DNA from: an uncultured Ruminiclostridium sp.
GTDB taxonomy: Bacteria > Bacillota > Clostridia > Oscillospirales > Ruminococcaceae
NCBI GenBank assembly: GCA_947623915.1
Contig: CANQIB010000012.1
Span: 1-64,000 of the forward strand
Direction: 5' to 3'
DNA: 64,000 nucleotides
A program made the position numbers and the translations under genes. Of the stretch, positions 3,811 through 35,351 are shown in pieces. The stretch's first letter is position 1, and each line of letters begins with the position of its first letter. The notes below the pieces were generated by a model, which worked only from the letters and a program-made list of their open reading frames with translations, did no database searches and was not told the DNA's origin.

Positions 3811-3894
3811 GCCATGGGCACATGTGCCCCGCCTGCGGCGGGGCATCGCGGCGCAAAGCGCCGCGCCGCAGCCTTGCTGCGCATGTGCCGTGGC
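3811..3894. other. Cloverleaf-like multi-hairpin structured segment
   Basis: Outer stem GGCACATG/CATGTGCC encloses CCCCGCC-tgc-GGCGGGG, GGCGC-aaa-GCGCC and GCAGC-ctt-GCTGC. Confidence 0.45.
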
Positions 3895-3947
3895 GTCAGG
3901 CGCTTGCTCCATGCCTTATATACACAAAAACGCCTCCGAAAAAAGAG

Positions 3948-3972
3948 TTGCAGGGGACTGCGTCCCCTGCAA
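3948..3972. repeat. Left target duplication (terminator hairpin copy) of element copy 1
   Basis: TTGCAGGGGACTGCGTCCCCTGCAA, identical to 4202-4226. Confidence 0.85.
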
Positions 3973-4201
3973 CAGACTGTAGAAAAAGGTCGATATAAAG
4001 CGGAAGGAAAGAGTTGAGTTTAAAACTGTCCGCCGTTCGGCGGAAAGTTCACGGGGAAAACCATCAGGGTTTTCACCCTCAAGTTTGATAAGAGCCGCGC
4101 AAAGCGCGGCAAAAATCGAGCGATACCGCTTATGCGGTATCGCCGATTTTTTGGCAGCTTGTCGGGAAATCCGACCGTAGGGAGGGTTTTTCGACAAGCT
4201 G
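3973..4201 (+). mobile_element. MITE-like structured element, copy 1 (229 bp)
   Basis: Imperfect TIRs CAGACTGTAGAAAAA / TTTTTCGACAAGCTG; shared with 34474-34671 and 61060-61256; flanked by 25-bp direct repeats. Confidence 0.8.
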
Positions 4202-4226
4202 TTGCAGGGGACTGCGTCCCCTGCAA
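4202..4226. terminator. pyk terminator hairpin / right target duplication of copy 1
   Basis: TTGCAGGGGACTGCGTCCCCTGCAA immediately 3' of the pyk stop. Confidence 0.8.
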
Positions 4227-34473: not shown

Positions 34474-34671
34474 CAGTCTGTAGAAAAAGGTCAATATAAA
34501 GCGGAAGGAAAGAGGTGTTTGAGGGGAAAACCATCAGGGTTTTCACCCTCAAGTTTGATAAGAGCCGCGCAAAGCGCGGCAAAAATCGAGCTAGACTGCT
34601 TACGCAGTCTAGCCGATTTTTTGGCAGCTTGTCGGGAAATCCGACCGTAGGGAGGGTTTTTCGACAAGCTG
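34474..34671 (+). mobile_element. MITE-like structured element, copy 2 (198 bp)
   Basis: CAGTCTGTAGAAAAAGGTCAATATAAAGCGGAAGG...GGTTTTTCGACAAGCTG. Confidence 0.8.
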
Positions 34672-34698
34672 AAAAGCCGTGCAGAACGCACGGCTTTT
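34672..34698. terminator. Terminator hairpin of the ABC locus / right target duplication
   Basis: AAAAGCCGTGC-AGAAC-GCACGGCTTTT directly 3' of the ATPase gene. Confidence 0.8.
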
Positions 34699-34706
34699 AA
34701 TATATT

Positions 34707-35351
34707 TTATTTTATCTTGCTGATGACTCCCTTGTCCATCTCGTTTACCGTGTCGCACAGCACTTCTATATCCTCCGCCGAATGGGAGGCTATCAGCACG
34801 GTCTTGCCCTGCTCTCTGAATTCAAGCAGGTACTTCCTCATATCCGCCACTCCGTCCTTATCCAGCCCGTTCATAGGCTCGTCGAGTATCAGCAGTTCGG
34901 GGTCCTCCATTATCGCCTGCGCAAGCCCCAGCCTTTGCCGCATACCCAGCGAATATTTGCCGACGTGCAGCTTTAGGTCGGGGTCAAGTCCCACTCGGCG
35001 CATACTGTCCTTTACCTGCTCCGAGTTTATTTTGTTGTTCAGCGACGCGAGCAGCTTTAAATTCTTGAACCCGCTGTAATAGGGGATAAACCCCGGCGTT
35101 TCGATAATTATACCTATGCTCTGCGGGAAATCGCAGTCCTTTCCTATCCTCTGACCGGCTACCGTCACCTCGCCCGAAGTGGTATGTACGAACCCGCAGA
35201 TACATTTCATCAGCATCGTCTTGCCGCTGCCGTTTCGTCCGATAAGTCCGTGTATCTTCCCGCGCTCAAAGCCGACGGTTATATGTTTGAGTATCTCGGT
35301 CTTTTTAATGGTAAGCGATACGTCGTTTACGTCTATAAGCATATCCGTCAC
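34707..35351 (-). CDS. ABC exporter ATPase
   Basis: GRNGSGKTM, YSLGMRQRLGLAQAIMEDPELLILDEPMNGLD. Confidence 0.92.
   Translation of the reverse strand: MTDMLIDVNDVSLTIKKTEILKHITVGFERGKIHGLIGRNGSGKTMLMKCICGFVHTTSGEVTVAGQRIGKDCDFPQSIGIIIETPGFIPYYSGFKNLKLLASLNNKINSEQVKDSMRRVGLDPDLKLHVGKYSLGMRQRLGLAQAIMEDPELLILDEPMNGLDKDGVADMRKYLLEFREQGKTVLIASHSAEDIEVLCDTVNEMDKGVISKIK

Follow-up and report, generated by a model that had tools for sequence, protein, structure and literature searches.

In the 64,000-nucleotide stretch of a Ruminiclostridium contig analyzed here (the window), a hairpin designated P3 occurs three times with a stem that differs between copies and stays paired, and the question raised by this locus is why both arms change together. 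The initial annotation had quoted the three hairpins and read their compensatory variation as selection for a structured RNA or DNA hairpin, or as exchangeable hairpin cassettes. All three were verified in the window, with the flanks AAAAATCG...CGATTTTT common to them, and the interval 4094-4155 quoted for the first copy was found to comprise a separate hairpin, P2 (4094-4110), P3 (4111-4152) and the first base of the right end, P4 (4155). The pattern AAAAATCG-N20..40-CGATTTTT occurs three times in the window versus zero expected (100 shuffles). Folding of P3 against its own shuffles gave a z of about -8 to -9 for each window copy, and the hairpin-element-hairpin stretch of copy 1, folded whole, a z of -13.6. 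The features of the three copies are the following.

3947..3973, minus strand: distal target hairpin of copy 1, on this strand the pyruvate kinase terminator with its T-run (TCTTTTTT)
3974..4201, plus strand: copy 1, element in its long form
4001..4013, plus strand: conserved motif CGGAAGGAAAGAG of copy 1
4014..4082, plus strand: P1 region of copy 1, with a GGGGAAAACC/GGTTTTCACCC hairpin inside TTGAG/CTCAA and the extra hairpin branch of the long form
4094..4110, plus strand: P2 of copy 1, GCCGCGC-AAA-GCGCGGC
4111..4152, plus strand: P3 of copy 1, the hairpin in question, with a constant outer stem AAAAATCG/CGATTTTT, an inner stem that varies between copies (GCGATACCGC/GCGGTATCGC here) and terminator features on either strand
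4155..4201, plus strand: P4 of copy 1, the right end of the element, CAGCTTGTCG...CGACAAGCTG
4202..4226: second target hairpin of copy 1, TTGCAGGGGACTGCGTCCCCTGCAA, adjoining the pyruvate kinase stop codon
34450..34473: left target hairpin of copy 2, one arm degraded
34474..34671, plus strand: copy 2, element in its short form
34581..34622, plus strand: P3 of copy 2, inner stem GCTAGACTGC/GCAGTCTAGC
34672..34698: right target hairpin of copy 2, AAAAGCCGTGCAGAACGCACGGCTTTT, adjoining the stop of an ABC-transporter ATPase gene (34707-35351, minus strand)
61032..61059: left target hairpin of copy 3, ATACCCACAAGCGCAGGCTTGTGGGTAT
61060..61256, plus strand: copy 3, element in its short form
61167..61207, plus strand: P3 of copy 3, inner stem GCAATACCGC/GCGGTATTGC
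61257..61284: right target hairpin of copy 3, with the same sequence as the left one; GATTTTTT follows it

The genome to which the window belongs (2.25 Mb in 25 contigs; the own genome) contains about 47 copies of the element, which are roughly 200-435 bp long and for which no coding match was reported; the absence of a transposase gene and the high copy number are as in a MITE. From 5' to 3', the element consists of the left end CAGTCTGTAGAAAAAGG, the motif CGGAAGGAAAGAG, and P1, P2, P3 and P4, the last with the inverted ends CAGCTTGTCG...CGACAAGCTG. Long forms carry an additional hairpin module, and composites reach about 435 bp; in four own-genome composites (L169, L170, L175, and L177) an extra 5' module (CTTAGGCAAGAT..., GTAATCAGCAGG, GTGCGGCGGCTGCCGCAC) is joined to an unchanged 3' part. 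The 5' domain of the element was detected in 18 of 71 genomes of the genus (the sister genome is G018), and weaker copies of it in other families of the order. GC-rich hairpins also occur apart from the element, as a cluster directly upstream of copy 1 (window 3820-3890; GCCCCGCCTGCGGCGGGGC, GCGGCGCAAAGCGCCGC) and as tandem arrays of GCGGGGACTTCGTCCCCTGCACCCCTTAT units at the end of contig C18 and the start of contig C24.

A hairpin, H, stands on both sides of most copies, and the junctions of intact elements lie mostly 0-3 nt from it. When the two flanks of a copy were aligned, the mean score was 18.5 for own flanks versus 6.2 for mismatched flanks, and the own-flank score was above the 99th percentile in 25 of 37 copies. 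The flanking hairpins form 24 direct pairs and 10 that align better inverted, two of these weakly (roughly a quarter inverted). By a simple ORF-based call, the gene context is convergent in 24 cases, tandem in 17 and divergent in one, and the three window copies target terminators of genes that, judged by their translations, encode pyruvate kinase, an ABC-transporter ATPase and an iron-alcohol-dehydrogenase-like protein. Such a position at gene ends, shared by nearly all copies, would also be expected of an immobile, dispersed terminator repeat spread by recombination, with ordinary double terminators as flanking hairpins. We consider this explanation very improbable, since the flanking hairpins vary from site to site yet match within a site, and since the same exact duplication is present around an insertion sequence (IS) with the same kind of ends. 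The element, as far as its sequence and surroundings tell, looks mobile, inserting into terminators and duplicating the target hairpin whole. One copy in the sister genome (L080, G018:C3 near 28850) is flanked by a ~43-bp direct repeat of a gene 3' end in which no hairpin is obvious; targets other than hairpins may thus be duplicated at times. Other arrangements were also recorded. The complete genome G014 (L140-L158) contains several ~500-600 bp elements between duplicated hairpins, with unrelated interiors and similar ends (CAGxCTGTmGAAAAA ... CTACAAGCTG). A 34-bp mini-element with little beyond the two ends (CAGTCTGTCGAAAAAGTTATTTTTCGACAAGCTG and variants) lies beside repeated GGCAGACTTCGAGAAACACGCG in L173 (about 2023-2056) and, in the own genome, at the end of contig C23 and the start of contig C11.

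Ten contig ends of the own genome break within this IS: six left ends (CAGACTGTCGAAAAAGCC..., followed by promoter-like sequence, an RBS and ATG) and four right ends (CAGTTTGTAGAAAAACCCC...). The autonomous IS was reconstructed out of these contig ends, four left ends being matched to four right ends by their hairpins, and at all four matched sites the whole hairpin is duplicated exactly (24, 25, 29, and 35 bp). The 35-bp duplication is P3: the IS was inserted in the P3 of one element copy, whose left half is L040 and whose right half is the end of contig 8. Aligned over 76 positions, the right end of the IS has 7 differences from an end that in G082 lies beside the C-terminus of an IS1182 transposase, and in G015 a degraded IS1182 transposase gene is located between CAACCTGTCGAAAAAG and CTTTTTCGACAAGCTG; in both genomes (L193 and L194, respectively) the remnants between the same or homologous ends match NF033551. 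Searches with PF13751 and NF033551 found no assembled transposase in the own genome, and full-length IS1182 genes of other members of the genus (L185-L189) have none of these ends. We provisionally assign the own-genome IS to the IS1182 family by homology of its ends only, and its ends in common with the element make the latter a putative non-autonomous relative of an IS1182-family IS, a transposon origin that the initial annotation had not mentioned. The duplications of 24-36 bp at element and IS sites differ from what is expected of IS200/IS605-related REP elements (REPINs), whose defining feature is the lack of target-site duplication. Group IIC introns also favor terminators; they were set aside, an element of roughly 200 bp with duplicated target hairpins being unlike one.

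The use of a stem-loop as target is a hallmark of IS1272-type transposition. IS1272 and TnSha1 (PMC4923244, PMC5678879) resemble the present case in their stem-loop targets, often terminators, with little sequence preference, and in their IS1182-family transposase; TnSha1 also moves passenger DNA bounded by one IS end and a sequence resembling it (PMC4923244, PMC5678879). However, IS1272 itself removes its target stem-loop (PMC5678879, PMC4923244), and both systems delete or replace it without target duplication, whereas here the whole stem-loop is present at both ends. Wan et al. (2017) put forward a hypothetical pathway in which joining at the 5' feet of the stem-loop may duplicate it whole (PMC5678879, Fig 13 pathway b). 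No demonstration of this pathway was found in the literature searched, mostly without subscription journals, and priority is not established by that search. MITEPye1 of Paracoccus yeei is, according to the accessible text of its description (PMC11578231), also small, non-autonomous and foldable, with direct repeats and ends like the inverted repeats of the IS1182 family; it differs in being present in 1-3 copies per chromosome, preferentially in intergenic regions, and neither modular hairpins nor whole-hairpin duplication were noticed in that text.

P3 was parsed directly in 44 own-genome copies, the MAFFT alignment of the hairpin being in places out of structural register. The claim that the stem varies yet stays paired held genome-wide, since 427 of 439 stem cells (97%) are paired, and 10 of the 12 mismatched cells lie within the two pairs adjoining the loop. 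The stems fall into three main alleles, with G·U intermediates in addition. The inner stem is GCTAGACTGC/GCAGTCTAGC in 10 copies, GCGATACCGC/GCGGTATCGC in 8 and GCAATACCGC/GCGGTATTGC in 6, and two copies (L010 and L012) have GCGATACCGC/GCGGTATTGC, a G-U intermediate between the G-C and A-U alleles; none of the own-genome copies is intermediate between the GCTAGACTGC stem and the GCRATACCGC stem. Changes on both sides affect pairs 3, 5 and 8, and in L034 and L036 the outermost inner pair is altered on both sides together with the outer stem (TCA/TGA, TTG/CAA). In pairs 1-8, most single-base changes are transitions that preserve G-U pairing, which also fits selection on structure. Stem mismatches at neutral frequency, named in the initial annotation as evidence against selection, were not seen in pairs 1-8, the apical pairs being looser.

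Other species of the genus have different yet self-paired stems at the P3 position, and the P3 sequence itself is not conserved between them: TGAGCAAGTATG, TTGGCAAGTATG and TGTTCAAGTATG in G082, within copies otherwise very similar; GAACTCCCGC and GAAATCCCGC in G063; and GGCAGAGC, GTCATAGC and GGTGGAGC elsewhere. When arms were swapped among 22 distinct stems, pairing was 0.92 with own arms versus 0.47 after swapping, and 0 of 20000 permutations reached the observed mean; the G018 stems, cut out of register and with low scores (0.33-0.44), were kept in this test. P-values from a tree-aware null for stem covariation were discarded, the tree being poorly resolved and some sequences mis-extracted. 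The per-site difference between copies is 0.20 in the P3 arms versus 0.048 in P4 and 0.014 in the P1 region, so that the variability of the P3 stem exceeds that of these parts about 4- to 14-fold; the two yardsticks may be constrained themselves, and P4 was measured on a length-filtered subset of 26 copies. Exact loop inversions of P3 are present in two genomes: in the own genome, P3 of L032 is the exact reverse complement of that of L019 (GTAA/TTAC loops), and in G082 that of L245 is the exact reverse complement of that of L249 (GCTG/CAGC loops).

A transcribed, functional structured RNA in which selection restores pairing stepwise after single mutations would account for the high proportion of paired cells, for the G-U intermediates that bridge two alleles, for the self-paired stems at the same place in other species, and for P1, which is conserved in sequence and covaries, with changes on both sides in 6 of its 11 pairs. 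If selection on an RNA were the only force, the stem would not be expected to outpace the rest of the element by far, as P3 does, and therefore DNA-level conversion is ranked higher; the exact loop inversions, the lack of sequence conservation between species and the fact that no promoter was found within the copy 1 element also speak against this RNA, which we regard as rather improbable. The selection proposed in the initial annotation thus stands as far as pairing is kept and the variation is compensatory, but covariation alone does not imply selection on an RNA: of the element parts measured, the stem varies most, P3 loops are inverted, target duplicates may be inverted, and an IS has hit P3. 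These last three are DNA-level events that can keep arms complementary.

The domain upstream of P3, made up of CGGAAGGAAAGAGG and hairpin P1, is separate from it and recurs across families of the order. Against Rfam 15 there was no hit above the gathering threshold, and the sub-threshold matches (9 loci, best E 0.006) were at chance level. From its sequence pattern, P1 may be a cargo RNA, with template switching as a further possible source of its covariation. More tentatively, and with doubt prevailing, CGGAAGGAAAGAGG plus P1 with its AUCA loop and P3 as terminator might constitute an unrecognized structured ncRNA family captured between IS1182-type ends, which would act as a mobile RNA gene of gut Clostridia, moving between terminators, the target-site duplication of its IS being a whole stem-loop. 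Domains of this kind were also noted at a seemingly identical locus in three species (L277, L278, and L279 in G084, G083, and G005, respectively), between hairpins and with the CAG ends apparently lost. P1-like sequences from other families of the order (L345, L346, and L348) have CGGARGG and AACCRTCAGGGTT unchanged, but their stems differ.

The exchangeable cassettes of the initial annotation come close to the reassortment of modules that we observed. P3 alleles are found with long as well as short 5' modules, which suggests exchange between copies. It could be argued that ready-made P3 cassettes are swapped by gene conversion or IS-mediated hairpin duplication, with little template switching from arm to arm; the IS insertion that leaves two P3 copies and the two main stem types without intermediates would agree with this, as would the combinations with both 5' modules. 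However, no standalone donor or donor terminator for the GCTAGACTGC hairpin was found in the 71 genomes, and swapping accounts for the spread of alleles, not for the origin of a new paired stem or of an inverted loop; as a full explanation it seems unlikely to us. GCRATACCGC hairpins with other loops occur in 10 other genomes, and in G014 one is the target hairpin of an element.

The explanation that we favor, and hold to be fairly probable, is that P3 is a bidirectional terminator-like module of a non-autonomous element moved by an IS1182-family transposase, and that mostly DNA-level processes give rise to its compensatory variation. Element and IS have ends in common, both lie at terminator hairpins, in the arrangements H-element-H and H-IS-H, and P3 has itself been used as an IS target; from these arrangements we infer that the transposase would join the element at the 5' feet of the extruded target hairpin, and that repair synthesis would then copy the entire stem-loop to either side of it. 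P3 of copy 1 is terminator-like on both strands, with a GC-containing stem followed by a T-run, and in several species a paired stem is likewise set between an A-run and a T-run; P3 is probably a bidirectional terminator, as predicted from these motifs. The element splits host terminators but brings one that would act in either orientation, so that its insertion would be nearly neutral, or nearly harmless, at the target. Template switching within the palindrome would render the two arms complementary, with an occasional flip of the loop, exchange among the roughly 47 copies would reassort P3 alleles with other modules, and the constraint for a working hairpin would purge broken versions.

Precedents exist for the template-switching step. 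As stated in the available portions of the two reports, template switching between the arms of an inverted repeat homogenizes the arms and inverts the spacer (PMC8604942), and it creates and maintains RNA hairpins (PMC8794818). Arm homogenization and loop inversion maintain pairing there, as would be the case here, without stepwise compensation; those portions concern RNA hairpins and yeast coding sequence (PMC8794818, PMC8604942), whereas the present hairpin belongs to a putative transposon derivative. The covariation of P3 is strong, and the loop inversions and excess variability, a possible non-selective source of it, point to template switching and inter-copy exchange, with the structure under constraint, rather more than to RNA covariation of the classical kind. 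We infer that DNA-level conversion with structural constraint ranks above classical compensatory RNA evolution, the two not being mutually exclusive.

Small, structured intergenic repeats that insert into one another are also known from pneumococci as BOX, RUP and SPRITE, the last resembling rho-independent terminators in the accessible sections of these sources (PMC10969869, PMC3049150). They belong to another host group and are likened here by description, not by sequence. To our knowledge, whole-hairpin target duplication is not known for them. The sites described here offer natural examples, exact over 24-35 bp, of a whole-stem-loop duplication that the IS1272 paper shows only as a hypothetical pathway. 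That both arms of P3 change together is probably due in large part to DNA copying, with one arm as the template for the other; such matched changes are therefore no proof, by themselves, of a functional RNA. That compensatory changes can come from arm conversion and loop inversion at the DNA level is a warning for the covariation-based discovery of structured RNAs within repeated elements.
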